A program made the position numbers and the translations under genes. Of a DNA stretch of 51,972 nucleotides, positions 565 to 21,665 are shown piece after piece; the first letter of the stretch is position 1; every line of letters starts with the position of its first letter. The notes beneath the pieces are model-generated. The model worked only from the letters and a program-made list of their open reading frames with translations, had not been told where the DNA came from and did no database searches. The DNA is from Verrucomicrobiota bacterium (GTDB lineage: Bacteria > Pseudomonadota > Gammaproteobacteria > Nevskiales > Nevskiaceae): NCBI GenBank assembly GCA_903970595.1, contig CAJCJI010000046.1, forward strand, positions 1 through 51,972. Direction: 5' to 3'.

Positions 565-1428
565 TCAGCCCGCGCTGGCCCGCGCCAGCTCCTCGAACTC
601 CCCGTCGGACAGCATCACCCCGGCGGCGGCCACGTTCTCCTCCAGGTGCTTCACGCTGCCGGTGCCCGGAATCGGCAGCATCGCCTTCGAGCGCTTGAGC
701 AGCCAGGCCAGGGCCACTTGGCCGGTGGTGGCGCCGTGCGCCTTGGCGATGCGGTCGGCGAGGCCGCCCGGCTTGGCCAGGCTGCCTGCGGCGAGCGGGA
801 ACCAGGGAATGAAGCCGATGCCCTCAGCGGTGCAGTAATCGAGCACCGCCTCGCTCTTGCGGTTGCCCAGGTTGTAGAGGTTCTGTACCGTGGCCACCGG
901 GAAGAATTTCCGCGCCGCTTTGACCTGCTCCACGTTCACCTCGCTCAGGCCCGCATGCTGGATCAAGCCTTCCTTGAGCAGTTCGGCGATGAGGCCGAAC
1001 TGCTCCTCGCGCGGCACCTTCGGGTCGATACGGTGCAGCTGCCACAAGCCGATGCGCTCCACTTTCAGCCGGCGCAGGCTCATCAGCACGCATTGGCGCA
1101 GATATTCCGGCCGGCCCACCGGCTGCCAGATGTCCGGCCCATGCCGGGTCAGCCCGCCCTTGGTGGCGATCAGCAAGCCCTTGTAGGGGTGCAGCGCCTC
1201 CGCGATCAGGTCCTCGCTGATGGTTGGTCCGTAGCTGTCCGCGGTATCGATGAAATTCACGCCCAGCTCCGGCAGGCGCCGCAGCACCCGGATCGCCTCC
1301 GCGCGGTCGCGCGGCTCGCCCCAGATGCCGGGGCCGGTGATCCGCATGGCGCCGTAGCCCAGCCGGGTGACGGCGAGTTCGCCGAGGATCTTGAACTGTC
1401 CGGAAGCTCCGGCATTCGCTGCGCTCAT
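565..1428 (-). CDS. Aldo/keto reductase
   Basis: A 287-residue NADPH-dependent oxidoreductase with a TIM-barrel fold that reduces aldehydes or ketones. The catalytic tetrad is visible: Asp61 and Tyr66 in IDTADSYG, Lys90 in IATKGG and His132 in LWQLHR. The C-terminal [13 protein letters not shown] segment is the usual cofactor-phosphate binding region. The length is normal for the family. The start is well supported by AGGAGG about 8 bases upstream of the ATG. It is the last gene of the minus-strand string that begins with the AveC-like gene at 7249, lying 70 bases after the NorQ-like gene, so it may be co-transcribed. The substrate cannot be told from the sequence. Confidence 0.9.
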
Positions 1429-1498
1429 GGGGTGTTCCTCCTGGATCGGAAAGGGGCGGGCCAGAAAGCCGGCGCCGGTTCTGCCGCCATCTTAGCGA

Positions 1499-2323
1499 TT
1501 AATGCGCAGCGGCTTCGCCGCCCAGGTAAACCTCGATCATCTTGATCAGTCCGCCGGCGACCTCGGCATCGTCCGTCAGCGGCCCGGCGATGGCGGTGCG
1601 TGCGGCCTCCGCGGGCGCCAGGCCTTCCAGCATGAGCCGGCCGGCCGCGATCAGCACCCGGGTCGATGCCACTTCCCGCAGGCCCCCCGAACCCAGCCGG
1701 CGGATGGCCTGCCCCAGGCGGACCAGCTTCGCGGCCTGTTCGATGCCGATCCCCGCCTCGCTCGCCACGATCTTCTCCTCGATTTCCGCGGAGGGAAAGC
1801 CGAACTCGATCGCCACCATGCGCTGGCGCGTGGAATCCTTGAGGTCCTTGAGCACGCTCTGATAGCCGGGATTGAAGGACACGACCAGGCAAAAGCCCGG
1901 CGCGGCATCCAGGGTTTCGCCCAGCCGCTCGAGCGGCAGCTGGCGCCGGTGATCCGCCAGCGGGTGGAGCACCACCGTCGTGTCCTGCCTGGCTTCGACC
2001 ACTTCGTCGAGGTAGCAGATCGCGCCCTCGCGTACCGCCCGGGTCAGCGGTCCGTCCACCCACCGGGTTTCGCCGCCATGCAGCAGGAAGCGTCCCACCA
2101 GGTCGGCGGTGGTGAGGTCATCATGGCAGGCCACCGTGATCAGCGGCCGGCCCAGATCGTGTGCCATGGCCTGGACAAACCGGGTCTTGCCGCAACCGGT
2201 CGGCCCCTTGAGCAGGATTGAAAGCCCCTGGCGAAACGCCGCCTTGAACACCTGCTCTTCGTTCGCCACCGCAAGGTAGTAGGGCCGGGCTTCGCGATTC
2301 ATGCTCAAGATGCTTGTATCCAT
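1499..2323 (-). CDS. NorQ/CbbQ/NirQ-type AAA+ ATPase (MoxR group), copy 1
   Basis: A 274-residue AAA+ ATPase. Walker A is GPTGCGKT (40-47), Walker B is ICYLDE (102-107), sensor 1 lies in SFNP (149-152), and arginines in STRQR (about 166-168) suit an arginine finger. The CHDD motif at 67-70 and the DHRRQL segment are typical of CbbQ/NorQ. Such ATPases form hexamers that work with a VWA partner to activate metalloenzymes such as RuBisCO or nitric oxide reductase. Here the partner is the NorD-like gene 9 bases upstream, but no NOR or RuBisCO genes are present. A second start seven codons in (2302) is possible; neither has a strong ribosome site. The paralogue at 18568 has the same length. Confidence 0.9.
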   Translation of the reverse strand: MDTSILSMNREARPYYLAVANEEQVFKAAFRQGLSILLKGPTGCGKTRFVQAMAHDLGRPLITVACHDDLTTADLVGRFLLHGGETRWVDGPLTRAVREGAICYLDEVVEARQDTTVVLHPLADHRRQLPLERLGETLDAAPGFCLVVSFNPGYQSVLKDLKDSTRQRMVAIEFGFPSAEIEEKIVASEAGIGIEQAAKLVRLGQAIRRLGSGGLREVASTRVLIAAGRLMLEGLAPAEAARTAIAGPLTDDAEVAGGLIKMIEVYLGGEAAAH

Positions 2324-2332
2324 CCTGCCGGC

Positions 2333-4006
2333 TCAAGCAGCCCGGCGCCTGACTTCGGCGTTGCGCAGGGCCGAACGGAACAGCGGGCCGACACGCTCGC
2401 CAAGCTGGCTGGCGGCGGCAAAGCTGGCGTGCGCGGCGCTGCCGAAAACTCTCCTCAAGGATACGGCATCGGTGCTTGCGCCGATGCTCAGGCACAGGCA
2501 CCCGACGCCGTCCCGGCGCGCCTCCGCCAGGGCCTGCCGGGCATCGGCCGCGCCATACGCGGGCTCGTAGCCATGGTCGTAGGCCAGGCCGTCGGAAAGC
2601 ACCAGCAGCAGGCGCCTCGAGGTCCCGCCGCGCTCGATCAGCAAGCTGGCGCCATGACGGATGGCCGCGCCCAGCCTCGAATACGCGCCGGGGACCAGGC
2701 TGTGGAGCCCGCGCATGACCCGGCTGTCCAGCCCCTGGTCGAAGCGCTTGACCGGCACCAGGTGCACGGCCGACCGTCCCTGCGAATGGAATGCATATAA
2801 AGCGACACGATCGCCAATGTCGTGCAGCACGGTGCAGAGCCCGGCCGCGGCCTGCCGTTGCTGCGCGTGCACGCTGCCGCCCGCGGGACTGGCCTGGGTG
2901 ACCGATCCCGATACGTCCAGCAGGACCAGCACCGACAGGTCGCGCCGGCGCCGCAGACCCGCGACATAGGTGTTTTCGCCCGGCATGCCGCCGGACCAGC
3001 GCTCCACCTGCGCCTCGATTGCCGCGTCGATGTCGATGTCCTCGCCCCCAGCCTGGCGATGAACGCGGTCCAGGCCCATGCCCAGGCGCGCGAGCGGACG
3101 CCGCAAGCCGTGCCCGTCCAGCCATTCCACCGAGGCGTGCAGTTCCGCCGGCGGTTCGACTTCCTGCACCGTGCACCAGTCGGGCCGGTAGGCCTGCCGA
3201 TGAATGTCCCATTCCGGATAGAGGATTCCACGGCCGACGCCGAATGCACCGGCGATGGTTTCGGCGGCCGTGGTGGAGAGCAGGAAAGACGCGCCGATCC
3301 GGGGCCGCGACCAGTGCGTCGGCGCATCGGCGCCGGGCGCCGCGCCCTGCTTGATCTTGCGCACCGCCTCTAGCGCTTTCTGCAGCCAGCGGCCGAGCCA
3401 TCCGCCGCCGCCGGCCGGGCTGCTGGCAAAGTCCTCGAAGTCCTCTTCTTCTGTTGCATCATCGGCCAGTTCGGCAAGCGGCTTGTCTAGCTGCCGATAG
3501 GGGGCGTGCCGGCCGCCTGAATCGGTCGCTGCGGCACGCGCTAGGGCAGCCAGCAGTTCGCGTACCCGGATCGAACCGAAAAAAGGCGGGGGATCTTCGA
3601 TGGGTTCTTCGCTCAGGGCGACGATCAGCGACGCCGATGGTGATACCGAGCGGGACGCGATGCCGTGATCGATCGTGTCCCGCATCGATGGCGGCAAGAT
3701 GCCTTCCAGCGCCGCCAGTGCGCGATGCCCTTCAACAGCCAGGTAACGCCTGGCCAGTCCCGGCCGCCGCGCCAGCCGGCCTACCAGCTCGCGCTCCAGG
3801 CTGCCGGCTGCGAGCAGAGCGCTCTGCACGCACAGTTCCTTCAGCTGCGTCTGCAGGCTGGCGCCGCCATCGACGAAGATCACCGTTCCGCTGGTCCACG
3901 CCGGTACGGCGGGTTCGGTGTGATCGACGCAGACATCCCGCCGGGATAGCGCCGAGGCCAGCAGGCCCAGCGCAGAGAGCTTGTTGCCGTGCGGGATGGG
4001 ATTCAC
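2333..4006 (-). CDS. NorD/CbbO-like VWA-domain protein, copy 1
   Basis: A 557-residue protein with a variable helical N-terminal half, an acidic linker (about 180-195) and a C-terminal von Willebrand A domain. The metal-ion (MIDAS) motif is D364-x-S366-x-S368 in LLDVSGS, with D472 in LSDGL. The usual MIDAS threonine is replaced by Ser443 in AYSRLGAA. The YPEW motif at 263-266 is shared with the second copy and is characteristic of NorD proteins. The start is GTG with a weak ribosome site, 14 bases after the SDR stop. It probably forms a chaperone complex with the adjacent NorQ-like ATPase. The target enzyme is unknown; the linked AveC-like protein, SDR or P450 are candidates by position only. 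Confidence 0.87.
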   Translation of the reverse strand: MNPIPHGNKLSALGLLASALSRRDVCVDHTEPAVPAWTSGTVIFVDGGASLQTQLKELCVQSALLAAGSLERELVGRLARRPGLARRYLAVEGHRALAALEGILPPSMRDTIDHGIASRSVSPSASLIVALSEEPIEDPPPFFGSIRVRELLAALARAAATDSGGRHAPYRQLDKPLAELADDATEEEDFEDFASSPAGGGGWLGRWLQKALEAVRKIKQGAAPGADAPTHWSRPRIGASFLLSTTAAETIAGAFGVGRGILYPEWDIHRQAYRPDWCTVQEVEPPAELHASVEWLDGHGLRRPLARLGMGLDRVHRQAGGEDIDIDAAIEAQVERWSGGMPGENTYVAGLRRRRDLSVLVLLDVSGSVTQASPAGGSVHAQQRQAAAGLCTVLHDIGDRVALYAFHSQGRSAVHLVPVKRFDQGLDSRVMRGLHSLVPGAYSRLGAAIRHGASLLIERGGTSRRLLLVLSDGLAYDHGYEPAYGAADARQALAEARRDGVGCLCLSIGASTDAVSLRRVFGSAAHASFAAASQLGERVGPLFRSALRNAEVRRRAA

Positions 4007-4020
4007 TGCAAGGCAGCGAG

Positions 4021-6144
4021 CTACAGCTTCTGCAGGTCGTCGACGATGGTCTGCAGCCGCTCGGGCGGCATCTTCGCCTGCGGAAAAGCGGAAATCTGCT
4101 TGAGCGTCAGCCCGCGTCCCATGCGCAGGAGCGGGCCTGCGGACGCCATCTCGGGATAGTGCTTCGCCATGACGGCCGTGGCCTGCGGGTCGTCCAGGAT
4201 GGTGCCCAGCCTGGTTTCGGCGGTGAATCGCGTATGGCCCTCCTTGCCGGGTGCGGCGCCCGTGTTCACGCCGCGCCGCAAGCTGATTTGCATCACCTCG
4301 TCGACGATCGAGGAGGGGACGGTGAAGGGCTGGGTTGCCGACACCTGGCCCAGATTGGCCGCGATATCTTCGGCCGTCGGCACGCTGCCGGGTGGCGCGA
4401 GCCAGCCTTCGCCGAGCCCGGCGAAGACGCGGGCGTAACGTCCCGCTCCCGCCGAATAGTTGTGATGGCTCAATTCACAGGCGCGGCTGGCCAGGAAGAC
4501 GGCCATCGGCACGACCAGCCTGGGGTCGATCAGCTGCAGAAAGGGAATCTGCGCGGCGGCATCGTCACCGCCCACGGTCTCGGTCACCATGCGCGAATAT
4601 CCGAACGGCAGGATGCTGTTCGCCTTGATGCCGCAGGCCTCACCCTCGATGGCGATGACATTCGACAATCCGACGATCCCCGCCTTGGCAGCGGCGTAGT
4701 GCGCTTCCTGCGGTTGACCGAACAGGCCCGCCGACGACGAAGTGAAAACGAACCGGCCGTAGCCCTGCGATTTCATGACGCGAAACGCAGGCTGGCTCAA
4801 GAAGAATGCGCCGTCTAGGTGAACATTCAGCATGCGCCGCCACGCGTCGGCCGTCAGATTTTCAAAGTCGATGGAGCTGAAAATGCCGGCATTGCTGACC
4901 ACGGCGTCGAGGCGGCCAAATGCCTGCAAGGCGGTGCGAACGATGGCCTCTCCGCCCTCGGGGCTGGCCACCGAGTCGTGCGAGGCCACGGCCCTGCCGC
5001 CGCCGCGCCTGATCTCCTCGACAACCTGGTCGGCCACGCTGGTGTCCGCGCCGTCGCCCTGCATGGAGCCGCCAAGATCGTTGACGACGACCGCCGCGCC
5101 GCGCTGTGCAAACTCGAGTGCATACAGCCGGCCAAGGCCGCGGCCGGCGCCGGTGACAATCACCACCTGGTCCGCGAAATCGATCTTCTGCCCAGGCGTG
5201 CGAACTTGAACCGATCGACCGTGATCCGCATCCTGCTTCCGCTGATTCCCGACCGGCGCAGCCACGATGTTCTGCGGCGCTGCGCGCAGCGCGCCGCGGC
5301 GCGGAATGCGCATGGCCATCCGGATGATCTGGTGCACCCAGCGGCCCGGCAGCAGGCGCGCCATCAAGGCGAGCGCCGCCGCGTCGGCACCGACGATGCG
5401 CCGCCTGATCGGGGCCTCGTCGTCCAATGCCGCGGCCAGGGCGCGGGCAAACAGCGCGGGCGGGCTGGCCTTGCTCACCGCCGCTTTGCCGGTGGTGTGA
5501 ATGCCCTGGTACAACACCCCATACGGGCCCTGGTGATTGCCGTAGTCGGGCGTCTGCTCCGTCAGGATGTCGGTGTTGAACGATCCGGTGACCAGGATGG
5601 TGACGCCGAGCCCGAACGGCGCGATTTCCTGCGACAGGGCTTCGGCCCAGCGCTCCAGCGCGCCCTTGGAGGCCGAATAGGCGCTGATTCCCGGCATGCC
5701 GCGGATCGCGCCCGCGCTGGATATCGCGACAATGCGGCCGCGCCCTTTTGCGCGCATCGCCGGCAGCAAGGCCTTGGTCAGCGCGACCGGCCCGAACAGG
5801 TTGGTGGCGAACATTTGCTGCCAGACTTCGCCCGGCATTTCTTCCACGCCGGCAAACGCGGCGATGCCCGCGTTGTGGACGATCACATCGGGGGCACCCA
5901 CGGCGTCCTCGATGGCCCGGGCCGCCGCCGGTATCGAGGCCGCATCGGTCAGGTCGAGCTTGACCCCGACCAGGCGCGGATCGTTCGCGGAGGCTCCGGT
6001 TGCTGCACGCAGGCGCGCGAGGCCTGCGTCAACCGAGCGCATGGCCCCCACCACCCGCCAGCCATCCCGATACAGTTGCACGGCGGACGCCAGGCCCAGC
6101 CCCCGGGACGCGCCGGTGATGACCACGCTGCGCAACTCAGCCAT
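4021..6144 (-). CDS. Tandem short-chain dehydrogenase (two SDR domains fused)
   Basis: A 707-residue protein with two complete SDR domains. Domain 1 (about 1-285) has TGASRGLG at 10-17 and the catalytic pair Tyr156/Lys160 in YSASKG. Domain 2 (about 320-600) has TGAGRGLG at 331-338 and Tyr483/Lys487 in HYAAAK. Domain 2 resembles the 3-hydroxyacyl-CoA dehydrogenase part of multifunctional enzyme 2 (VVVNDLGG, SVADQVVEEIRR). A C-terminal tail of about 100 residues includes ILDDPQATAVMAKHYPEM. The chosen ATG (6144) overlaps the end of the AveC-like gene by 8 bases, suggesting coupling. A longer frame upstream lies wholly within that gene and is not used. Two successive oxidations of a lipid-like or terpenoid substrate are plausible but not shown. 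Confidence 0.85.
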   Translation of the reverse strand: MAELRSVVITGASRGLGLASAVQLYRDGWRVVGAMRSVDAGLARLRAATGASANDPRLVGVKLDLTDAASIPAAARAIEDAVGAPDVIVHNAGIAAFAGVEEMPGEVWQQMFATNLFGPVALTKALLPAMRAKGRGRIVAISSAGAIRGMPGISAYSASKGALERWAEALSQEIAPFGLGVTILVTGSFNTDILTEQTPDYGNHQGPYGVLYQGIHTTGKAAVSKASPPALFARALAAALDDEAPIRRRIVGADAAALALMARLLPGRWVHQIIRMAMRIPRRGALRAAPQNIVAAPVGNQRKQDADHGRSVQVRTPGQKIDFADQVVIVTGAGRGLGRLYALEFAQRGAAVVVNDLGGSMQGDGADTSVADQVVEEIRRGGGRAVASHDSVASPEGGEAIVRTALQAFGRLDAVVSNAGIFSSIDFENLTADAWRRMLNVHLDGAFFLSQPAFRVMKSQGYGRFVFTSSSAGLFGQPQEAHYAAAKAGIVGLSNVIAIEGEACGIKANSILPFGYSRMVTETVGGDDAAAQIPFLQLIDPRLVVPMAVFLASRACELSHHNYSAGAGRYARVFAGLGEGWLAPPGSVPTAEDIAANLGQVSATQPFTVPSSIVDEVMQISLRRGVNTGAAPGKEGHTRFTAETRLGTILDDPQATAVMAKHYPEMASAGPLLRMGRGLTLKQISAFPQAKMPPERLQTIVDDLQKL

Positions 6145-7249
6145 GACCGGCCCCGCAACGTCCAGCCGGCACGGGCGCATTGAGCGCCGGACGCCCGTCC
6201 GCTTGGCCGCTCGCCCAGGTGCTCCACTCCCCCGCGAAGAATGGCCCGACCTGGCCATCCCTTTCGTAATAGCCCTGGGGGTCATACACCTTGGCTTCCG
6301 GATACGGCCAGGGGCAGGCGACGGAAGTCGAGAAATGCCCGGCCTTCATGAGCGCGAAGGCGCCGCCGTACATGAAATAAGCGAGGTTGAGGATCGCGAA
6401 CATCACCAGGAAGGTCGCCAGCGCCGGGCGGGCGCGGAACAGGCGCAGGCGCTGGGCCAGTTTCTCGGCCTGGGACCGGCCGGTATCGTCCCGGTAGCAG
6501 AGGATGCCCGCGGGAATCATCACCAGCGTGACCAGGGAGGATTCCCAGATCAGCGGGAACTGGAAAGGCGTGCCGACAAAGATGGAGCCGAACGGCACGA
6601 CCTGCGAGTAGATGTACAACCCGGTCCAGATCATCGTTACCTCAAGCATGACGTCGATGAGAAACCCGAACAGGAAAATGAGGGCGGCCAGGCTCAGCAG
6701 AGGGTGGCGCCAGACGAACGAGTCCATGGGACGACCCGCCTGCAGGCGGCGCAGGGTCCAATTGGCCGGGAAGAAGGGGCCGAAATAGAAGGTCGCGTAC
6801 CCGATCACCACGAAGGGCTCGACCGTGGGCGAAAGGTTCGCCAGGGGCCAGTCTTCGGGCCAATGCCAAAGGCGGGGATCGTACACGGCGTAGGGCGACC
6901 AGTTCATGATCGGGTCCTGCCAGACGATCGCGGTCGCCGCGATCACCATCAGCACGTAGGGATGGCCGGGCCGGCGCTGCCAGGCCCTCATGCAGGCGAT
7001 GGTCAGGGCCAGCATCATCACCACCGTCATGATCTGGTTGAACTGGAACCAGTGCGTCCAGCCCAGCAGGTACTCCACCGGGCGCGGGGCGCCGCTCACC
7101 GCCGCATTGGCGATGCGCGGAGAGACGGCGCCGGTGCGCGCGAACCACGCAATCACGCCGATCAGCGCAAGACAAATCCAGAACCAGGCCGAGACAAAAG
7201 GCGAACCCTTCTCGGGCGTCACCGTATGGGCTGCATTGTTAGCGGACAT
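6137..7249 (-). CDS. AveC-like (spirocyclase AveC family) membrane protein, copy 1
   Basis: A 370-residue polytopic membrane protein with about seven hydrophobic segments (roughly 21-37, 72-88, 98-110, 145-160, 185-202, 235-251 and 278-297). Two family signatures as I recall them are visible: WQDPIMNW (110-117) and GTPFQFPL (226-233). AveC shapes the spiroketal of avermectin; relatives in actinobacteria and proteobacteria mostly have no known function. AGGGAG about 9 bases before the ATG supports this start, which trims 45 codons from the longest frame. It is the first gene of the minus-strand string and shares the divergent promoter region with the P450. The copy at 20883 has the equivalent motifs at nearly the same spacing. 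Confidence 0.78.
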   Translation of the reverse strand: MSANNAAHTVTPEKGSPFVSAWFWICLALIGVIAWFARTGAVSPRIANAAVSGAPRPVEYLLGWTHWFQFNQIMTVVMMLALTIACMRAWQRRPGHPYVLMVIAATAIVWQDPIMNWSPYAVYDPRLWHWPEDWPLANLSPTVEPFVVIGYATFYFGPFFPANWTLRRLQAGRPMDSFVWRHPLLSLAALIFLFGFLIDVMLEVTMIWTGLYIYSQVVPFGSIFVGTPFQFPLIWESSLVTLVMIPAGILCYRDDTGRSQAEKLAQRLRLFRARPALATFLVMFAILNLAYFMYGGAFALMKAGHFSTSVACPWPYPEAKVYDPQGYYERDGQVGPFFAGEWSTWASGQADGRPALNAPVPAGRCGAGHG

Positions 7250-7432
7250 CGTTGCTCGCTCCCTGGACCGCCAAGAACAGCGGGACTGTGTGAACCGGCA
7301 ACTCACGACAGCGGCAGCGGTAATGCCTGACCGTGTCTCGCGGCCCCGACCGGCTCGCGATTGAATGCGACCGAATCGATTCACTGCGGCTTCTTGCGGT
7401 CTGAACGCCTGGCAATTGCCGCTATGGTCAGA

Positions 7433-7479: not shown

Positions 7480-7581
7480 TCATCGCACGCTCAAAACGGG
7501 CCGGGCTGCGCGGTCGGCGCCAGCGCCGCTGCGGATTTTCCGTTGGACCAGAACGATGATTGCCTGCTCGAGGGGAGATCG

Positions 7582-8832
7582 ATGACCAGTGCCGACATGA
7601 CCAACAAAGTGAAGCGGCCCGCCCACGTGCCGGCTTCCCTGGTCTATGACTTCGACTACAACAGCGATCCGGAGTACTGCAGGGACCCGCATGCCCGCGC
7701 GGCCGACCTGGCCAGGAACGCGCCGCCGATGTTCTGGACGCCCTACAACGGCGGCCACTGGATGTTCCAGTCTTACGAGGCGGTATCCGAAGCGCTGCGC
7801 GACTACGCGGCTTTTTCCAGCGAGCATTTTTCCCCCGAAGCCTTTGCCGCGATGATGGCGGAAATTCCGGAGGAAGAGCGCATCCCCGCGCCGGTGCCCA
7901 TCTGCATCGATCCGCCGCTGCACGCCAAGCTGCGCGGTCCCTTGTATTCGACGTTTTCCCCCAAGTCGGTGCTGGCCAGGGAGAGCGGAATCCGCGCGCT
8001 GGCCGAGCGCCTCATCGACGGCATCGCGGGCAAGGGCCGCTGCGAATTCCAGCATGACGTGTCCGACATCTACCCGGTGGAGATCTTCCTGGGGATGTTC
8101 GGGCTGCCGGTGGAAAAAGAGCGCGAGTACCGGGAAATGGCAAAGAGGCATTTGTCGGTGATCTCGCCGGACCTCGCCGAAAACATGATCATGATGAAGA
8201 ACATCGCCTCGGTCATGCGCGACACCATCGTCGAGCGCCGGGACAACCTCAAGGACGACATCATCAGCCTGCTGTGGTCGCTGGAACTCGAGGGCGAGCC
8301 GATGAACCTCGATCTGATGCTCAGCTACTGCGTCATCCTGTTCATCGCCGGGCTCGACACCGTGGTCAACGCGCTGGGATTCGGTGTGCGCCACCTGGCG
8401 ACCGACCTCGCCCTGCAAAGGGAGCTGCGCGCCAAGCCGCAGCTGATTCCCGACGCCTCGGAAGAACTGCTGCGCCGCTACTCCTTCGTTGCCCCGATCC
8501 GCATCATGAAGAAGGACAGCACATTCCGCGGCGTGCAGCTGCTGCAGGGCGAGCGGGTCATGATGTTCATTCCGAGCGCCAGCGTGGACCCGAAGACCTA
8601 CCGCGATCCGACCGTGTTCGACATGCGGCGCGAGCGGCTCTCGCACATGGCCTTTGGAGCCGGGCCGCACGTCTGTCTGGGTTCCCACCTGGCCCGCCTG
8701 GAACTGAACGTCATGTACCAGACCATCCTGCTCCGGCTGCCTGAGTTTCGCCTGGACCCGGAGCGGCCGCCGCAGTTTCACGGCAGCATCATCGCGGGAC
8801 CGACCAGTATCCACCTGGTCTGGGGCGGGTAG
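7582..8832 (+). CDS. Cytochrome P450
   Basis: A 416-residue soluble bacterial P450 monooxygenase. The heme-binding loop is FGAGPHVCLG with the thiolate Cys365. The I-helix oxygen-activation motif is AGLDT (256-260), and the K-helix ExxR is Glu295/Arg298. No membrane anchor is present, so electrons would come from a ferredoxin or flavodoxin encoded elsewhere. The ATG at 7582 is preceded by GAGGGGAG at good spacing, so 13 upstream codons are dropped. It is the first gene of the plus-strand string with the small protein, TonB receptor and MFS pump. The substrate is not identifiable; the neighbouring SDR, AKR and AveC-like genes suggest tailoring or breakdown of a hydrophobic compound. Confidence 0.93.
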   Translation: MTSADMTNKVKRPAHVPASLVYDFDYNSDPEYCRDPHARAADLARNAPPMFWTPYNGGHWMFQSYEAVSEALRDYAAFSSEHFSPEAFAAMMAEIPEEERIPAPVPICIDPPLHAKLRGPLYSTFSPKSVLARESGIRALAERLIDGIAGKGRCEFQHDVSDIYPVEIFLGMFGLPVEKEREYREMAKRHLSVISPDLAENMIMMKNIASVMRDTIVERRDNLKDDIISLLWSLELEGEPMNLDLMLSYCVILFIAGLDTVVNALGFGVRHLATDLALQRELRAKPQLIPDASEELLRRYSFVAPIRIMKKDSTFRGVQLLQGERVMMFIPSASVDPKTYRDPTVFDMRRERLSHMAFGAGPHVCLGSHLARLELNVMYQTILLRLPEFRLDPERPPQFHGSIIAGPTSIHLVWGG

Positions 8833-9212: not shown

Positions 9213-9318
9213 TCCGGCGCGGGCGGACCGGAACAGGGTGGAACACTGCCCTGGAGGCGCACAGCCGGCAGCACCAGGCTCGGCGCACTCGAAAAGCATG
9301 AAGAGGAGGAGGGAAGAC

Positions 9319-13650: not shown

Positions 13651-15177
13651 ATGTCCGAGTTCAGTCGTGAAAAGCAATGCATCCACCTGGCCGCCGTTCT
13701 TACCTCGGCTGTAGCGGCCAGCACCACCGCGCTCGCGCTCACTGCGTGCGGAAGCTCCGTTGCGCCATTCGGCGGAAATGTGCCATCCCAAGTTGCTCCG
13801 GCAGTTTGCGGAGCCAACTCCCTGCCCGAAGGATCTGTTCAGGGTGAGGTTCCGTTGAGCGATAGGACCGGCGGCAGAAGCAAGCAGGGGTATCGCTGTA
13901 ATCTGGAACTGATAGGGCAGTACCAGGGAGAAGGCGCGAGCTGGGTTGACCCTTCCACCGGCAATTGCGCATATATGGCGACCAGCTTTTACGGCACGCT
14001 TGCTAAGAAGTCTCCCGGTGTGCAGGTCGTCGATGTTTCGAATACCGCACGTCCGGTGCTGTCGACCACGCTCACCAGTCCGGCCATGTTGGTCGGCCCG
14101 TGGGAATCGCTCAAAGTCAACGAGCCGCGGCAGTTGCTCGGTGCCGTGGCCGGCGGCCCCCTGGTCGCGGCAGGATTCTTCGATGTTTACGACCTGAGCG
14201 CAGACTGCACCCATCCCCAACACCTGAACGGATTGGCCGGCCAGGCTCTGGAATTACCGGACGACCTGCTGGGGCACGAGGGAAACTGGTCTCCGGATGG
14301 CCGCACATACTGGTCGAGTGGTTTGATCGGCGGCTCCCTGACCGCCATCGACGTCAGCAATCCGCAGTCTTCTGCCATTGTTTGGACTGGCATCGAAAGC
14401 TTCCCGGTAAACCACGGCGTCGAACTGAGCGACGACGGCAACACGCTGTACCTCGCCACCGTATTCCCGGGTGGAGTATTGATCCTCGACGTCAGCGACA
14501 TCCAGCAGCGCAAAGCCTCGCCGACCGTGCGCACCATCGGCAGCGTAAGCTGGGACAACGAGAGCGTGGCGCAGCATGCCATTCCGGTGAGCTACAACGG
14601 TAAACCGTATCTGATCGCAGCCGACGAATTCAATGCGGAAGGCGTACACATCATCGACATTTCCAATCCGGCGGCTCCGGTGGTGGCCGCGCACCTGCAG
14701 TTGCAAATCCAGCTCCCTCAATATGCCGCCGCACGCGCGGCCGATACCGCGGGAGACGGGCTGTTCGGCTACGAAGCTCACTACTGCGCAGTGGACCGCG
14801 CTACCAATCCGACGGCGTTGGCCTGCGCATTCTTCGAGTCGGGAATCCGTGTGTTCGACGTCACCGACCTGCTCAATCCGCGGGAGATCGCCTACTTCAA
14901 TCCGCCGGCCCAGACCGGCCGCTTTCTGCAGCTGCCGGGTTCCGAGCATGCAGCCGGTCTTGCCCTGGTGCCCGCGGTGTCCAATTTGAGCGGAGACGTT
15001 CTGATCGGAGCTGGCGACTATGCCCTCAATCTTCTGCAAGGCAACGATGCCAACCTGAGCGCGGACTGGTGCAGTTCGCCGCCCCGTTTTGTAGCTCCGG
15101 ATCAGCTGTGGGTGACCTGCCAGGACAATGGCTTCATGGTCCTGCGCTTCACCAACGGCGTTTACCCCATCCAATGA
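13651..15177 (+). CDS. LVIVD-repeat beta-propeller lipoprotein
   Basis: 508 residues. The N-terminus has a hydrophobic segment and a lipobox-like ALTAC with Cys33, so it is likely a lipoprotein. The body contains repeated blades of the LVIVD type: GVQVVDVSNTARPV, SLTAIDVSNPQ, GVLILDVSD, GVHIIDISNPAAPV and GIRVFDVTD. These form a beta-propeller usually found on the cell surface or in the periplasm. The ribosome site GGAGGAG stands close to the ATG. The stop overlaps the start of the DUF305 gene by ATGA, so the two are translationally coupled and probably act together. Ligands of the family are mostly unknown. The gene starts 25 bases after the MFS stop. Confidence 0.85.
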   Translation: MSEFSREKQCIHLAAVLTSAVAASTTALALTACGSSVAPFGGNVPSQVAPAVCGANSLPEGSVQGEVPLSDRTGGRSKQGYRCNLELIGQYQGEGASWVDPSTGNCAYMATSFYGTLAKKSPGVQVVDVSNTARPVLSTTLTSPAMLVGPWESLKVNEPRQLLGAVAGGPLVAAGFFDVYDLSADCTHPQHLNGLAGQALELPDDLLGHEGNWSPDGRTYWSSGLIGGSLTAIDVSNPQSSAIVWTGIESFPVNHGVELSDDGNTLYLATVFPGGVLILDVSDIQQRKASPTVRTIGSVSWDNESVAQHAIPVSYNGKPYLIAADEFNAEGVHIIDISNPAAPVVAAHLQLQIQLPQYAAARAADTAGDGLFGYEAHYCAVDRATNPTALACAFFESGIRVFDVTDLLNPREIAYFNPPAQTGRFLQLPGSEHAAGLALVPAVSNLSGDVLIGAGDYALNLLQGNDANLSADWCSSPPRFVAPDQLWVTCQDNGFMVLRFTNGVYPIQ

Positions 15178-15839: not shown

Positions 15840-15867
15840 CTGCTATTTTGCGACGCGAAGATTTATA

Positions 15868-15887: not shown

Positions 15888-15976
15888 TTGCGCAAAGATG
15901 CGCTCACCTTGTTTCTCGTTTTGGGCGACGCACTCACTTCCGGCGATAACCCCAGCCACCAAAGTCCATTGTGATC

Positions 15977-16636
15977 ATGCGACGCGCAGTGAAGAACTCC
16001 ATTGAACCCAGCAGTGCGCGGGCCGAGCGTACCCGCGCGGCCATTCTTGCGGCGGCGGAGGACCTGTTTGCGCGGGGCGGTTATGCCTCCACGCGCCTGG
16101 AAGACGTGGCCGACTCCGTGCACATGACCCGCGCGGCGCTGTTCTATTACTTCCGCGACAAGCAGTCCCTGTTCGACGCGGTGCTGAGCTACTCGTTCGG
16201 CGGGCTGGGCGGGAAGCTGGAAAAAATACTCGCCGCCAAGCGCGGCAGCACCGTCGAGCGCATCGAAAAGGCCACGGCGGCCTGGCTGGATTCCATCATC
16301 GAGCGGCCCGCGCGCGCGCGCCTGATCCTGCGCCTGGTTGCCGACAACACCGGGACGCTGTCGCACGGCGTGTTCTCGGACAACAACCGCATTGCCGAGA
16401 GGTTCTGGGCCCTGTTCGAGCAGGGGCGCCAGACGGGTGAACTGAAACCCTTGCACGACGATGTCTTTCACCTCACCAGCGCGGTAGTCGGCACCGCGGT
16501 CTTCTACGTTGCGGCCTTATCCGTCCTGCTGCCGCAGGGCGGCTTCAAGCCCCTGGCCCCGGAACATGCGGCCGCGCACAAGCAGGAAGCTTTGCTCATG
16601 CTGCGGCTCTTGCTCGGCATCAAGAACGAGGCATAG
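15977..16636 (+). CDS. TetR/AcrR family transcriptional regulator
   Basis: About 219 residues. The N-terminal helix-turn-helix is typical of TetR: RAAILAAAEDLFARGGYAST, then VADSVHMTRAALFYYFRDKQ. The C-terminal ligand-binding helices are diverse. The start is uncertain: GTG at 15971 and ATG at 15977 are in frame and neither has a clear ribosome site. It stands between the P450 string and the second AveC/NorQD cluster, both in the same orientation. It probably represses one or both and responds to a small hydrophobic ligand; the shared motif upstream supports this. The ligand is unknown. Confidence 0.88.
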   Translation: MRRAVKNSIEPSSARAERTRAAILAAAEDLFARGGYASTRLEDVADSVHMTRAALFYYFRDKQSLFDAVLSYSFGGLGGKLEKILAAKRGSTVERIEKATAAWLDSIIERPARARLILRLVADNTGTLSHGVFSDNNRIAERFWALFEQGRQTGELKPLHDDVFHLTSAVVGTAVFYVAALSVLLPQGGFKPLAPEHAAAHKQEALLMLRLLLGIKNEA

Positions 16637-16756
16637 CACACGCCTTAAGCCGCAAGGACTGCGGTCGCACACAAGCGGGGCAGGGAGCCTCGCTCTATCG
16701 GCAAGCGGCATCACTCTCGCGGGGTGGCGTGCCGTTAAAATCTACTAGCGCGATCG

Positions 16757-16785: not shown

Positions 16786-16889
16786 ACTTGAAATCCGGCG
16801 GCGCCCTGCACACAGGGGTGGCGAGCCGATAAAAAGAGGCCCTGCAGCGCCCTTGCCGATGTCCACGTGCCAAATGAGGAGACGCGCAG

Positions 16890-16997: not shown

Positions 16998-17015
16998 GAT
17001 TTTGGGGAATCGCCC

Positions 17016-18545
17016 ATGTCGCAGGGGATCGGGCAGGCCTTGGGAGTGGAGCGTAGCTGCGCGATCGTTGCATCGGCGTTTTCGGAGGGCCGCTGCGAAG
17101 ACCTCCGGCTGGTGTCGGGCGAGCGGCGCGCCTTCAGCATGAATACGGCGCGCACGGCGCTGAACGTGCCGTACCCCGCGCTGACGCCGGATTGGACCCT
17201 GCGCACCTGGGTGAGCGGAATCGCCTTGCAGTGCTCGCCGTCGAAGGAGCGCATCGCGCGCTATGCGCTGTCCACGCTGACGCCGCGGCAGACCGCCGCG
17301 CTGGCCGTCGTCGAAGGCGGCGTTTCGCTGGGCTGGCTGGCCTTGCGCTGGCCCGGCCTGGTGCCCGAGGTGCGCCGCTTCCTTCCCGAACTCGAGTTGC
17401 GTGAGCCCACGCTAAGCGGCGAGCAGATCCTGGAGACCGCGGCCGCGCTGGCTCGGTCCGGGCGCGACTTCCAGGTCCATCCCTTGCTGGGCGAACTGCC
17501 CATCGGCGCCCCGGCCAGGAATGGCTTGCTGGAAAGGCTGCGCCGGGCGCAGGGGCGCATGCCCTGGTCGTCGAATAGCTACCTGTCGCCCTGGCTGGAC
17601 ACCATTCCGGCCGGCGGCGAAAGCGGCATCAAGAGCTCGCGCCTGCCGCCGCCAAGCAGGCCGGAAGACGACGAGCCGGAAATCCGCGCCGACCAGCGCG
17701 CGGGCGTGCCCTATCCGGAATGGAACCTGTGGACCAGGCGGTTCCTGCCCAACCATGTCGCGGTGCTCGAACGCAAGCTGCCTGCGGGCAAGGCCAGCGC
17801 GCGCCCGGCTTCCGCCGACCTGCGCCGCTGGTTCGAGGAACATACCCATCGGGTCATGCACAGGCGTCTCGAAGACGGCTCCGACCTGGACATCGACCAG
17901 TACATCGAATTCCACGTCGACCGTCTCACCGGAAAGGCCTCGGAGGCCAGAGTCTTCCGCGATCTTCTGCCCGGGCTGCGTGATGTCACCACCGCGCTGC
18001 TGCTCGACGGCAGCGCTTCGCTGGGTTCCGGCAACGGCCGCACCTTCCAGCTCGAGCTGGCCTGCGCCGATGCGCTATGCCGCGCCATGTCCATCGCCCG
18101 TGAGCGCCACGGGCTGTTCGTGTTCAACGGCAAGACGCGGCACCGGGTCGACGTCACCTGCCTGCGGGACTTCAAGGATTCCTATTCGGTGGTGCCCAGC
18201 GAAATGGGCCTGAAGACTGGCGGCTACACCCGGCTCGGCGCGGCGCTGCGGCATCTGACCAGCCGCTTGCTGGAGCAGCCCTCGGAACGGCGCCTGCTCA
18301 TCGTGATCGGCGACGGCCTGCTGTCCGACGAGGGCTACGAGGGCCGCTATGCCTGGGCCGACGCGGCGCATGCGGTGGAGGAAGCCGGCGATGCGGCCGT
18401 CTTCGTCTACTACATCGGCGTCGGCCAAGCCAAGGTCGATCCGCTTCCGGATGTGTTCGGTCCGCGTTGCTCGACGCGGATCAAGAGGACCGATGAACTC
18501 CCGCGCGTGCTGGCGCAGGTGCACCGCGAACTGGTCGCCGCCTGA
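17016..18545 (+). CDS. NorD/CbbO-like VWA-domain protein, copy 2
   Basis: 509 residues with a helical N-terminal region and a C-terminal VWA domain. The MIDAS motif is complete: D331-x-S333-x-S335 in LLDGSAS, Thr405 in GGYTRLGAA and D433 in IGDGL. YPEW is at 233-236, as in copy 1. GGGGAA lies about 8 bases before the ATG. The NorQ-like gene follows 22 bases later. NorD-type proteins bridge the AAA+ hexamer to the client metalloenzyme. Overall similarity to copy 1 is limited outside the motifs, so the pairs probably diverged long ago or serve different clients. Confidence 0.88.
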   Translation: MSQGIGQALGVERSCAIVASAFSEGRCEDLRLVSGERRAFSMNTARTALNVPYPALTPDWTLRTWVSGIALQCSPSKERIARYALSTLTPRQTAALAVVEGGVSLGWLALRWPGLVPEVRRFLPELELREPTLSGEQILETAAALARSGRDFQVHPLLGELPIGAPARNGLLERLRRAQGRMPWSSNSYLSPWLDTIPAGGESGIKSSRLPPPSRPEDDEPEIRADQRAGVPYPEWNLWTRRFLPNHVAVLERKLPAGKASARPASADLRRWFEEHTHRVMHRRLEDGSDLDIDQYIEFHVDRLTGKASEARVFRDLLPGLRDVTTALLLDGSASLGSGNGRTFQLELACADALCRAMSIARERHGLFVFNGKTRHRVDVTCLRDFKDSYSVVPSEMGLKTGGYTRLGAALRHLTSRLLEQPSERRLLIVIGDGLLSDEGYEGRYAWADAAHAVEEAGDAAVFVYYIGVGQAKVDPLPDVFGPRCSTRIKRTDELPRVLAQVHRELVAA

Positions 18546-18567
18546 GCCTACAACGACACCACAGCCA

Positions 18568-19392
18568 ATGACCGATCACTATTACCAAAGCAGCGGCAGC
18601 GAAGTGCAGCTGTTCAAGCGCGCCGCGCAGCAGCGCGTGCCGCTCATGCTCACCGGGCCAACCGGCTGCGGCAAGACCCGCCTGGTCGAGCACATGGGGG
18701 GCGTGCTGGGCCGCGAGGTGGTCACTATCAGCTGCCATGACGACCTCACCAGCTCCGATCTGGTCGGCCGCTTCATGGTCACCGGCGGCGACGTGGTGTG
18801 GAACGACGGCCCGCTGACGCGGGCGGTGAAGGCGGGCGCGATCTGCTACATGGACGAAGTCGTCGAAGCGCGTCACGATTCGCTCGCCGTGCTGCACTCG
18901 CTCACCGACCATCGCCGCACGCTCTACCTGGACCGCGCCGGCCAGACGGTCAAGGCGCCGGACAGCTTCATGCTGGTCTGTTCCTACAACCCCGCCTACC
19001 GCAGCTCGCTCAAGGAGCTGAAGCCCTCGTTCCGCCAGCGCTTCGTGACCGTGGCCATGCGTTATCTTCCGGCCGAGCGCGAAGCCGAAGTGCTGGTGGC
19101 CGAAGCCGGTGTTGATGCGGCGGTGGCCAGGCGCCTGGTCAACTGCGCCATCGGCATCCGCAAGGCCGACGACATCTTCCATTTCGAGCCGCCCTCCACC
19201 CGCGTGCTGGTGACCGCCGCGCGGCTGGTCGCCGCCGGCGCCACCGAGATGGAAGCGGCGGAGGCCTGTATCCTGGCGCCGCTCAGCAACGACGGCGCCA
19301 TCGCCGACGGTCTGCGCGAACTGGCCGCGGCAAGTCTGCTGGACGCTTCAACCCCGACACCACGCAGCACTGCAGGAGGAATCAAGCCATGA
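18568..19392 (+). CDS. NorQ/CbbQ/NirQ-type AAA+ ATPase (MoxR group), copy 2
   Basis: 274 residues, the same length as copy 1. Walker A is GPTGCGKT (30-37), Walker B is ICYMDE (92-97), sensor 1 lies in SYNP (139-142), and the arginine-finger region is PSFRQR (153-158). The shared CHDD, VGRF, DGPLTRAV and EVVEAR segments show close kinship to copy 1. The ATG at 18568 gives a start just after the NorD stop; a longer frame upstream overlaps NorD and is discarded. The stop overlaps the next small gene by ATGA. It is expected to remodel or activate a metal-containing client in or at the membrane, with NorD as adaptor. The client is unknown. Confidence 0.92.
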   Translation: MTDHYYQSSGSEVQLFKRAAQQRVPLMLTGPTGCGKTRLVEHMGGVLGREVVTISCHDDLTSSDLVGRFMVTGGDVVWNDGPLTRAVKAGAICYMDEVVEARHDSLAVLHSLTDHRRTLYLDRAGQTVKAPDSFMLVCSYNPAYRSSLKELKPSFRQRFVTVAMRYLPAEREAEVLVAEAGVDAAVARRLVNCAIGIRKADDIFHFEPPSTRVLVTAARLVAAGATEMEAAEACILAPLSNDGAIADGLRELAAASLLDASTPTPRSTAGGIKP

Positions 19393-19523
19393 GCGACAAG
19401 TCCGTTTCCCAGCAGGACCGGCGGCGCAAGCGGGCGCTGATCGTGTTCCAGGTGCTGCTCTACAGCTACCTCCTCGGGCTGTTCCTGGTGCAGCTGCACA
19501 TGTCCCACGAACGCGGCTGGTAG
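19389..19523 (+). CDS. 44-residue single-span membrane protein
   Basis: The N-terminal 14 residues are polar and basic (QQDRRRKR), followed by one hydrophobic span (about 16-36) and a short tail with two histidines (LHMSHERGW). The basic N-terminus predicts a cytoplasmic N-end. The start overlaps the NorQ stop by ATGA, so translation is coupled; GCAGGAGGAA lies upstream within the end of NorQ. The next gene begins 7 bases later. The family is not recognised. The coupling to NorQ is strong evidence that it is a real gene and that it works with the cluster. Confidence 0.68.
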   Translation: MSDKSVSQQDRRRKRALIVFQVLLYSYLLGLFLVQLHMSHERGW

Positions 19524-19530
19524 ACCGATC

Positions 19531-20232
19531 ATGTCGACCCTCGCTCAAAAACCCCCAGGCTCCTTCGGCGGCTACGACGCGCACCAGGACCACAGCGCCC
19601 AGGCGCAGAAGCGCGCCGACAAATGGATGATCCCGGGCACGCTGCTGATGGGCACCGGCATCCTCGGCATCATCGGCTTTCCATTGTTTCTATGGGGCCT
19701 CAGGCTTCAGGTGAACGCCGCCAAGGCCGGCCTTTCCGTGCGCCCGGTCATCGTCACGCTGATCGGCTACCTGGTGATCATCGACTCCACCCTGAACAGC
19801 GCGGGCTGGATGATGGACCTCGTCGCCAACCACACCCTGATCAACCGCCTCATCACCGCCGGCTGGGGCGCCGTCTTCGATGGCGGCTACTTCTGGCACT
19901 ACAACGAAATCTGGGTCGGCGGCACCGGCGCGCCCGGCGAAAAGGCCTGGCAGATCTCGCTGATCATGGTGGTGTTCTGCGGCCGCATGGCGGCGGGCAT
20001 CGGCCTGCTGCAGATGAAGCGCTGGGGCCAGCAGTGGCTGATCGTGTTCTGCTGGATGGGGCTGATCGTCTGGATCGGCTACAACCTCAACATGACGTTC
20101 TACGGCGACGTCCGCTACGCCAACATCACCTTCCCGGTCTGGGGCTGGTGGATATACGACATCTTCTACATCACGCCGTTTCTCGCCATCCCCTATCTGC
20201 ATACGGTCAACCGCGAAATCTTCTCGGACTGA
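19531..20232 (+). CDS. Polytopic membrane protein of unknown family
   Basis: 233 residues with about five or six hydrophobic segments (36-58, 71-88, perhaps 104-120, 141-161, 168-186 and 206-224). A loop near 118-131 is aromatic and contains GGYFWHYNEIWVGG, with His123 and Glu126 as possible metal ligands. The N-terminal 30 residues are polar and hold two more histidines. I do not recognise the family. It is not NorB or a heme-copper oxidase, because the usual histidine pattern is absent. Its place between a NorQ-linked small protein and an AveC-like protein makes it a candidate core subunit of the complex. The ribosome site is weak. Confidence 0.75.
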   Translation: MSTLAQKPPGSFGGYDAHQDHSAQAQKRADKWMIPGTLLMGTGILGIIGFPLFLWGLRLQVNAAKAGLSVRPVIVTLIGYLVIIDSTLNSAGWMMDLVANHTLINRLITAGWGAVFDGGYFWHYNEIWVGGTGAPGEKAWQISLIMVVFCGRMAAGIGLLQMKRWGQQWLIVFCWMGLIVWIGYNLNMTFYGDVRYANITFPVWGWWIYDIFYITPFLAIPYLHTVNREIFSD

Positions 20233-20251
20233 GCCTTCACAGGACTCCACC

Positions 20252-20713
20252 ATGAACACATCCACCGCAGAGAGTCTGCCGCTCGGTACCACCGCGCACT
20301 ACGCCACCATGCACAAGTGGCTTCAGCGCGCCCTGCTCGTTTGCCTGACCGTCCTGGTGCTGGAAGCCTCGTTCACGCTCCCCGGACTGCTCATCTGGTT
20401 CGGCTGGCCGACACTGTCTCTGGTGCAGGTCTGCGACGAGCTGATGAAGGTCCGTTATTCGGACGACAACGCCCAATGCCTGGTGCCGCAGCCCCTGTTC
20501 ATCGCTTCCGAAGGCCAGGCCTACAAGAAGTCGGCCCAGGACGATTGGGGGATACAACCGAGGCCGCGCTACAAACGCATTGGCTACCGCGACCTGGTCA
20601 GGTTCCGCGATGAAAGGCTGGCGCGGGAAGCCGCGGCTGCGCAGCATCGCGGCCAGCTCGTGCCAGCATCCGCGGACACCACACCGGCGGAACCCGCCAG
20701 TCCAACACATTAA
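20252..20713 (+). CDS. Single-span membrane-anchored protein, unknown family
   Basis: 153 residues: a short polar N-terminus, one strong hydrophobic segment (about 26-50) and a polar domain of about 100 residues ending in a disordered Ala/Pro/Thr tail. Two cysteines (in VCDEL and QCLVP) lie after the span and could form a disulfide if the domain faces the periplasm. ACAGGACTCC precedes the ATG. It starts 19 bases after the 233-aa protein. No family is recognised. A periplasmic or accessory subunit of the same complex is a reasonable inference. Confidence 0.7.
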   Translation: MNTSTAESLPLGTTAHYATMHKWLQRALLVCLTVLVLEASFTLPGLLIWFGWPTLSLVQVCDELMKVRYSDDNAQCLVPQPLFIASEGQAYKKSAQDDWGIQPRPRYKRIGYRDLVRFRDERLAREAAAAQHRGQLVPASADTTPAEPASPTH

Positions 20714-20766
20714 AGGCCGCAAGCCGCTGGAAGCGGCTCGGCTGCCGATAGCCCGGAGAACATAAC

Positions 20767-20883
20767 GTGGGCGCGTTCATCATGTTGGGGACCCTGACCG
20801 GGCTGATGGTCCTGATCGTCGCCATCGTGCTTCGCTACGACCCCGAGGCACGCTCCCGGCCGGCGGGGAAGGGCGGCCGCTGA
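20767..20883 (+). CDS. 38-residue single-span membrane protein (GTG start)
   Basis: One hydrophobic span (about 3-22) followed by a basic, Gly/Pro-rich tail (RYDPEARSRPAGKGGR), so the tail should be cytoplasmic. Start GTG at 20767 with CCGGAG about 8 bases upstream; ATG at 20782 would cut into the span. The stop overlaps the start of the AveC-like gene (TGATG), which argues for translation coupling and a real gene. No family is recognised. It is the third tiny membrane protein of the cluster. Confidence 0.62.
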   Translation: MGAFIMLGTLTGLMVLIVAIVLRYDPEARSRPAGKGGR

Positions 20884-21665
20884 TGTCCGATCCGGTATCG
20901 GTAAGCGGAGCCGGCGTCGCCTTCGCCTACATCGGCGCCGTGTTTTTTGTCGCCCTGGGCGTGTACCTGAGCTATCGCCGGGGCCGGCTGCACCCGCTGT
21001 TGCTGTTGTGCGTATCGGCCATCTCCATCTCGTGGATCGAGGCGCCCTACGACTGGGCCATGTACGCGCAGTTTCCACCCGACCTGCCGCGCATACCGTC
21101 CTGGTGGCCCGTCAACATGGCCTGGCACGGTCTCCCGGCATCGGTGCCACCGGGGTACATTCCCTATTTCGTTCTCCCCGCGGTGATCGCCGTCTCCCTG
21201 GGGCGCTGGCTCAGCGCGAGATTTCAATGGCGCGCGCCGCAGACCTTGCTGGCCGCCGGCCTTCTGGTCGGCTGCCTGTGGGCCTTCCTGTTCAACGCGG
21301 GGCTGGGCGCCCGGCTTGGCCTGTTCTATTACGGCCGCGTCATCGAGGGCCTGGCCCTGTGGCCGGGCACCAGGCACCAGTATCCACTCTACGATACCCT
21401 GGCCATGGGCATACAGATGATGCTCTTCACCTACCTGCTCGGCCGCCTCGACGCGCAGGGGCGCTCGCTCATCGAGATCTGGGCCGATTCGAAGTCGAAC
21501 AACCGGATCAAATCCGGCCTCCTGTCGATCGCGGCGATCATCCTCATCGGTCACGCCGCCTACCTCGGCGTCTTTGCGCCGCACCTCGCCACCAAGATGT
21601 TGGGCCTGGTGACCATCGGCCCGACGGAGCAGTTGTTCGAGGGTGTGCCGAACCAGCCGCTCTGA
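20883..21665 (+). CDS. AveC-like (spirocyclase AveC family) membrane protein, copy 2
   Basis: 260 residues with about seven hydrophobic segments. WIEAPYDW (51-58) corresponds to WQDPIMNW of copy 1, and GTRHQYPL (162-169) to GTPFQFPL. The distance between the two motifs is 111 residues here and 116 in copy 1, which supports a shared fold. The WPGTxHQ(F/Y)PL form is what I remember from mycobacterial proteins annotated as spirocyclase AveC family. The ATG shares its A with the stop of the 38-aa gene. It is the last gene of the cluster; the next gene is convergent. The chemical activity is unknown and the name does not prove a cyclase function. Confidence 0.78.
   Translation: MSDPVSVSGAGVAFAYIGAVFFVALGVYLSYRRGRLHPLLLLCVSAISISWIEAPYDWAMYAQFPPDLPRIPSWWPVNMAWHGLPASVPPGYIPYFVLPAVIAVSLGRWLSARFQWRAPQTLLAAGLLVGCLWAFLFNAGLGARLGLFYYGRVIEGLALWPGTRHQYPLYDTLAMGIQMMLFTYLLGRLDAQGRSLIEIWADSKSNNRIKSGLLSIAAIILIGHAAYLGVFAPHLATKMLGLVTIGPTEQLFEGVPNQPL

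Follow-up and report, generated by a model that had tools for sequence, protein, structure and literature searches.

What do two NorQ–NorD (NorQD) chaperone pairs serve in a stretch of DNA that seems to hold no gene for nitric oxide (NO) reductase, RuBisCO or gas vesicles? The question is raised by positions 1 to 51,972 of contig CAJCJI010000046.1 (hereafter the window, all 51,972 nucleotides of it), from a bacterium named for the Verrucomicrobiota and placed by GTDB in the Nevskiaceae. An original prediction, made from the sequence alone, held that each pair serves the AveC-like membrane protein of its own gene string, or a membrane enzyme nearby, in a joint system with a cytochrome P450, a short-chain dehydrogenase (SDR) and a TonB receptor. 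We draw the lines differently. Gene content, clade-specific linkage, operon order, the N-terminal parts of the NorDs and patterns of conserved residues point to an island of two separate maturation systems, each a MoxR-class AAA+ ATPase with a VWA protein. We judge it probable, though well short of certain, that the first has AveC1 as its specific client and the second U and u, two small genes between NorQ2 and AveC2 that were absent from the first reading. The genes concerned are:

1499..2323, minus strand: NorQ1, MoxR-class AAA+ ATPase (AAA_5, E 2.4e-33; CbbQ_C, E 8.4e-25), clade I of the NorQ tree
2333..4006, minus strand: NorD1, VWA partner of NorQ1 (VWA_2, E 4.9e-8)
6137..7384, minus strand: AveC1, multi-pass AveC-like protein (PF17198, E 3.8e-64)
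17016..18545, plus strand: NorD2, VWA partner of NorQ2 (VWA, E 2.8e-8)
18568..19392, plus strand: NorQ2, AAA+ ATPase (AAA_5 and CbbQ_C, scanned as open reading frame (ORF) 18349-19392), clade II of the NorQ tree, support 98
19531..20232, plus strand: U, undescribed multi-pass membrane protein of 233 residues, adjoining NorQ in all clade-II rows
20252..20713, plus strand: u, undescribed protein with one hydrophobic segment by hydropathy, present in all system-II rows
20883..21665, plus strand: AveC2, AveC-like protein of a separate branch (PF17198, E 3e-68)

Pfam places both chaperone pairs and both AveC-like proteins where they had been predicted. NorQ1 and NorQ2 each score above the Pfam cut-offs for AAA_5 and CbbQ_C, as members of the CbbQ/NirQ/NorQ AAA+ family, and both have intact Walker motifs (Walker A GPTGCGKT in each; Walker B CYLDEV in NorQ1, CYMDEV in NorQ2). 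The VWA domain of NorD2 carries a metal-ion-dependent adhesion site (MIDAS), DGSAS / GGYTRLG / GDG, which agrees with the DxSxS-T-D consensus given in an excerpt of PMC13036017; the MIDAS-like set of NorD1 – DVSGS / GAYSRLG / SDG – has Ser in GAYSRLG where that consensus has Thr. The two AveC proteins score 216.8 and 230.2 bits against a curated PF17198 cut-off of 26.6, which by profile makes them the AveC relatives that the prediction required, and the two motifs that they had been said to share, at spacings of 116 and 111 residues, are indeed present. The first 45 listed codons of AveC1 may be untranslated, an ATG near 7249 being the likelier start. NorD1 and NorQ1 are 9 bp apart; u starts 19 bp after U. 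The Pfam scan covered 40 ORFs of the window, those at its two ends lying outside it, and among these 40 no match to NO reductase, RuBisCO or gas-vesicle families was found, nor any COX1-family protein (the NorB/NorC client), nor RuBisCO genes near either NorQ, in keeping with the prediction. The genome to which the window belongs, an assembly of 534 contigs that is about 87% complete, has exactly two CbbQ_C matches and exactly two AveC matches, all of them inside the window.

Evidence that the two pairs have different partners came from a NorQ tree of 152 rows (155 hits, identical sequences merged), built by a quick method with SH-aLRT support only and labelled for AveC within 6.5 kb and for U within 1.5 kb, measured to profile-matched edges. 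NorQ1 falls in a clade of 65 rows (support 96), with AveC on the stretch in 62 and within 6.5 kb in 59. The NorQ2 clade holds 28 rows, every one of which has both U and u, with a second U upstream in 15; a divergent row beside this clade, L192, also has U, some 1.5 kb away. Both clades lie outside the NOR-linked branches, and across the 58 rows of the canonical branches, six of whose loci have a COX1-family neighbour, no AveC was found on the stretch. The partner labels are strongly clustered on the tree (0 of 200 shuffles gave a value as low), a clustering that relatedness alone can help to produce. The proposal that AveC proteins are clients of NorQD is thus borne out, as linkage, for pair 1, and fails for pair 2: on the evidence of NorQ2-type loci elsewhere, with U and u as constant partners, AveC2 was rejected as the client of NorQD2.

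The linkage extends well beyond the window, and co-occurrence of AveC and NorQD in other genomes, which the original prediction had made its test, was found in Mycobacteriaceae, Nocardia, the window's own order and metagenome-assembled genomes (MAGs) that are gammaproteobacterial or titled Deltaproteobacteria. Among 85 genomes of the window's order, 14 have AveC (E <1e-30; 19 of 85 at E 0.001), 17 have NorQ (E <1e-10; 18 at E 0.001) and 12 have both (Fisher p 4e-9); their 26 NorQ matches divide into 14 in the NorQ1 clade (AveC being on the stretch in 13), six in the NorQ2 clade and six others. Six of these genomes, the window's included, carry the island in varying arrangement: TetR, AveC1, an SDR (a double one in four genomes), NorD1 and NorQ1, with a second set nearby that comprises NorD2, NorQ2, two small membrane-protein genes (U and u in the window), P450 and AveC2. 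A NorQ-profile scan of named genomes, taken over the best 80 of 386 confirmed stretches, gave 26 with an identity to NorQ1 of 65% or more, most of them from Mycobacteriaceae and Nocardia, with two gammaproteobacterial MAGs and the one titled Deltaproteobacteria; the AveC profile finds a match in all but one of these loci (25 of 26), and in the exception, L078, the contig ends 84 bases after NorQ. The other 54 stretches, some of them only a few kb long, have no AveC match.

A further sample, 246 genomes spread evenly over the class to which a Nocardia genome belongs, gave AveC above cut-off in 22 and strong NorQ matches (E <1e-15; the weak matches of G451, G564 and G607 left out) in 18. All 18 have AveC (Fisher p 8e-24), each with at least one copy within 10 kb of NorQ, and 29 of the 51 AveC matches lie within that distance. 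The strong NorQ places number 37: AveC is on the stretch at 23 (about 7 kb away at one of them), U at 12, and neither at L190 and L204. The NorQ of L204 (G518:C22) is a 114-residue open frame, too short and left uncalled, and L197 and L198 were likewise uncalled at the threshold used. U occurs in 14 of the 246 genomes, all among the 18 with NorQ; 12 of the 14 have a U-linked NorQ locus (one being the divergent L192), and G382 and G438 carry a divergent U elsewhere. In the class of the window AveC and U are each present in 1 of 274 genomes, the window's own (U with a 7-row alignment as query), and in the class of the MAG titled Deltaproteobacteria AveC is above cut-off in 2 of 90 genomes (AveC search only).

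A 13-row sub-clade, with Nocardia, mycobacteria and two gammaproteobacterial MAGs among its members, has the bare order AveC-NorQ-NorD. Gaps of 234-293 bp separate AveC from NorQ, and NorD follows after another 27-69 bp. In 12 of these rows the 5 kb around NorQ showed no P450, and the flanks change from DNA ligase and MlaE/Mce genes (L074) to an aldehyde dehydrogenase or SDR in others. As a control on reading clients from gene order, ten proteins near NorQ in nine canonical loci were scanned for families. Six of the ten, three of them in canonical loci of the window's order, are COX1-family proteins, which we take to be NorB, and five of the six loci concerned have the order COX1-NorQ-NorD; the four other proteins (L193, L079, L082) matched no known client. 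Gene order therefore finds the known client in most, though not all, control loci.

The NorDs are divided along the same lines. In BLASTP comparisons NorD1 aligns over nearly its full length with four AveC-linked NorDs (L057, L074, L077 and L048); with NorD2, with three NOR-type NorDs and with a VWA protein from another canonical-branch locus the alignment is confined to the VWA half (residues about 260-545). Within this set of NorDs, only those of AveC-linked loci share the N-terminal part of NorD1. NorD2 has a full-length match only to a mycobacterial NorD2, and matches NorD1 and NOR-type NorD by its C-terminal half only. The N-terminal part of NorD has been suggested to give target specificity (PMC9976466, in part).

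What, then, of the AveC proteins themselves? In AveC1 the conserved positions are D157, N161, E189, D244 and E248. All five are kept in 51 of 60 NorQ-adjacent AveC sequences, in none of 22 of AveC2 type – which read EDLAN at these positions in every row – and in none of five from genomes without a NorQ match, a pattern that is suggestive only, because NorQ-linked AveC sequences dominated the alignment in which the positions were chosen and the rows are related. A tree of 110 AveC rows, from which segments shorter than 150 residues were left out, sets the AveC2 type (22 rows on a long branch) apart from the AveC1 type and others; its deep joins are unsure because of long branches. Rows from genome-search loci carry about 1.5 kb of flank each, and the label 'not adjacent' covers that flank only. 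NorQ is found within 3 kb of just 3 of the 22 AveC2-type genes, and one member of the type comes from G480, where no NorQ match was obtained. AveC2 is probably not a client of NorQD: it belongs to a separate branch, is rarely found beside NorQ and lacks acidic residues typical of NorQ-linked AveC.

U and u have no Pfam, NCBIfam or meaningful PDB sequence match. Residues D85, N89 and D117 of U are invariant, and D96, H101, H123 and E126 nearly so, across 38 sequences; in u, C61 and C76 are invariant across 26. Against AmoC/PmoC, U gave no match to Pfam (38 members) or PDB profiles, no direct AmoC alignment being part of this comparison and the AlphaFold2 model of U (from 7 sequences, pLDDT 41, unused) being too poor for a fold search. 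U was also tried as a remote relative of AveC and dropped, profile-profile comparison giving a probability of 1.3%. A Halomonas locus that u matched weakly was set aside likewise: the match sits in a 744-residue frame, presumably a GGDEF/EAL signalling protein.

How might such systems work? We infer the clients from gene neighbourhoods in other bacteria, and contact between chaperone and client, like any metal, belongs to the model. NorQ1, as an ATPase ring, and NorD1, as a VWA adaptor, would act on the membrane protein AveC1. NorD1 would dock on AveC1 with its MIDAS site and with the N-terminal part peculiar to its system; ATP hydrolysis by NorQ1 would then twist the adaptor and open AveC1, which could in this state fold or be loaded with a cofactor; a metal is the likeliest, bound perhaps by D157/N161, E189 and D244/E248. 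Parts of this scheme have been proposed elsewhere: contact of the target with the MIDAS site and the N-terminal part is suggested, and twisting of NorD is put forward as mechanism, in passages of PMC9976466 and PMC13036017. NorQ2 and NorD2 would do likewise for the adjacently encoded U and u, and AveC2, without the five-residue set, would be a pathway neighbour. A bolder version, which we hold only tentatively and think rather less than even in its chances, makes AveC1 and U-u both unrecognised metalloenzymes of one terpenoid or sterol oxidation pathway. NorQD1 would load metal on D157/N161, E189 and D244/E248, the AveC2 branch having lost the site, and U-u would be a new membrane metallo-oxidase with NorQD2 dedicated to it. 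A single shared pathway is proposed because a system-I locus is present as well in all 12 class-sample genomes that carry a U-linked NorQ locus.

Besides the way in which the five positions were chosen, several observations weigh against AveC1 as the client of NorQD1. The AlphaFold2 model of AveC1 (residues 46-415; pLDDT 79, pTM 0.80; good in the core) matched nothing at E 0.001 or better among PDB and viral structures, and thus found no fold relative in the PDB. All five positions are also kept in 13 of 23 other AveC rows, and L230, an AveC from a NorQ-free genome that groups with the bare-operon branch, differs at one of them only; a near-complete residue set in such a genome counts against a strict need for NorQD. 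AveC is missing from the stretch in three NorQ1-clade rows (L052, L190 and L078, the last truncated by a contig end), and in the window itself NorD1 and the SDR gene stand between NorQ1 and AveC1. Two of the 14 AveC genomes of the order sample and 4 of the 22 of the class sample have no NorQ match, and 22 of the 51 class-sample AveC matches do not lie within 10 kb of NorQ; many AveC proteins therefore do without adjacent NorQD. Lastly, the listed genes of the avermectin cluster, as given in part of PMC13303154, include AveC and no NorQD.

Other explanations have to be set against the same data. NorQD1 might serve the P450, the SDR or an aldehyde dehydrogenase, AveC being a mere neighbour in the pathway, and the SDR and P450 are indeed found within 5 kb of 40 and 32, respectively, of the 59 system-I NorQ rows, a set into whose definition AveC is partly built. 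Frequent is not constant, however: AveC is on the stretch throughout nearly the whole NorQ clade, whereas these enzymes come and go, and for most bare operons no P450 was found within 5 kb, the operon of L074 standing between DNA ligase and MlaE/Mce genes. We consider such a client unlikely, and the P450, SDR and TonB receptor, originally seen as parts of a joint system, are better described as variable neighbours. AveC1 could instead be a membrane anchor or adaptor through which the NorQD machine reaches a third protein or works on the membrane directly, much as RavA-ViaA has been suggested, in part of PMC9489729, to act at the inner membrane. An anchor would be just as constant a partner, and no activity is known for NorQD-linked AveC; yet Streptomyces AveC is described as an enzyme (PMC13303154, in part), AveC occurs in NorQ-free genomes, and a set of acidic residues is kept in NorQ-adjacent forms, so that we think this reading likewise unlikely.

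Two further alternatives find little room. That each NorQD pair serves the AveC of its own gene string, as originally proposed, draws on the position of AveC2, which follows NorQ2-U-u on the same strand and starts 169 bp after u, and on the 7 of 28 NorQ2-clade rows with AveC on the stretch (within 5 kb in six). These seven are all island-type loci, and against them stand the 21 that have no AveC on the stretch yet retain U and u, as well as the rarity of AveC2-type genes beside NorQ and the presence of one in NorQ-free G480; we regard this reading as highly improbable. Only marginally more credit is due to the idea that AveC and NorQD are linked only because a lipid-catabolism island was passed on horizontally as a whole, its parts having no functional contact. 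Spread is patchy, as the single AveC-bearing genome of the window's class illustrates, and the same island turns up in distant taxa, but the partner family of each NorQ clade stays the same while the neighbourhoods change, and the N-terminal parts of the NorDs are system-specific, which leaves transfer alone very unlikely.

Returning to the favoured reading of two client-specific systems, comparison with known ones is instructive. NorQD of cytochrome c NO reductase (Paracoccus denitrificans) is alike in its AAA+ and VWA families, in its Walker and MIDAS-like motifs and in a partner membrane protein encoded next to NorQ-NorD; the bare system-I order corresponds to the COX1(NorB)-NorQ-NorD order of the control loci. 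It differs in that the partner slot of the window is taken by AveC or U-u and that the N-terminal part of the window NorD finds no BLASTP match in the three NOR-type NorDs. The RuBisCO activase CbbQ-CbbO likewise joins an ATPase with a CbbQ_C domain to a VWA partner (no proven CbbO sequence was in the comparison), whereas the window partner is a membrane protein. RavA-ViaA belongs to a different MoxR group. By description it too unites a MoxR ATPase and a VWA protein, with fumarate reductase as a reported target and the membrane as a reported site of action, and the named clients of MoxR/VWA pairs are few: cNOR, RuBisCO and fumarate reductase (PMC9976466, in part). The avermectin spirocyclase/dehydratase AveC is tied to AveC1 and AveC2 by their match to the PF17198 profile; it differs in that the window has catabolic-looking surroundings, linked NorQD and no polyketide synthase among the scanned ORFs. 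Structural data on AveC are lacking because heterologous expression is difficult (PMC13303154, in part), and AveC appears among annotation labels in mycobacteria (PMC5819568, in part). Within the open-access literature, no title or abstract that we found describes a link between AveC and NorQD. The clade-wide, cross-phylum linkage adds two candidate client classes for MoxR/VWA pairs, the AveC-like proteins and a family of membrane proteins without matches; it predicts that some relatives of AveC are active only with a chaperone of their own, and the five-residue pattern offers concrete candidate positions for metal binding.

The remaining genes of the island are these:

4021..6285, minus strand: double SDR (adh_short in two stretches; best solved match 2et6, E 5.8e-92)
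7543..8832, plus strand: cytochrome P450, CYP101-like (PF00067, E 3.2e-22; best solved match CYP101J2, 5kyo, E 5e-66)
9238..11913, plus strand: TonB-dependent receptor (Plug domain, E 3.5e-13)
15971..16636, plus strand: TetR-family regulator (TetR_N, E 8.8e-15)

Together the P450, double SDR and TonB receptor suggest that a lipid, putatively terpenoid- or sterol-like, is taken up and oxidised. The SDR is closest to the (3R)-hydroxyacyl-CoA dehydrogenase part of multifunctional enzyme 2; its ORF overlaps the 3' end of AveC1, and the true start is therefore probably further downstream. The P450 gene is divergent from AveC1, which corrects the first reading, and relatives of the TetR gene adjoin AveC1 or NorD2 in related islands.

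Some observations on the NorQ and AveC families stand apart from the argument. In four relatives (L035, L037, L041 and L043) a TonB-dependent receptor gene lies between NorD1 and NorQ1, and mycobacterial loci such as L057 have a periplasmic-binding-protein-like gene after NorQ. The NorQ1-clade NorQ of L190 (G454:C2), without AveC on the stretch read, sits inside an 884-residue open frame, possibly a fusion or a long upstream frame. A further divergent AveC branch (L045, L048 and L032, the last with an internal stop) reads EDKNE at the five positions. The mycobacterial genome of L117 (G369) has 14 AveC matches, ten of them on one contig. Compared with the solved chain FD15, the AveC profile gave E 5.8e-10 over 34 positions in four stretches, FD15 being possibly a repetitive helical protein. 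With AveC2 as query no AveC was found on plasmids and no relative was confirmed on viral contigs; for NorQ1 the top plasmid match is 61.2% identical, among the 30 of 3353 records listed.

Elsewhere in the window an LVIVD-repeat protein (13651-15177) lies between an MFS transporter and the second operon, and cytochrome bd oxidase subunits I and II (45281-48018) have an alginate-export-like protein (43694-45145) as neighbour. G+C content drops to 0.53-0.59 in or near genes for an N6-methylase/Eco57I-like protein (25658-28789), a HipA-like kinase (35043-36371) and a replication-associated, REP/YagK-like protein (41673-42755), low-GC stretches that are possibly a mobile segment.

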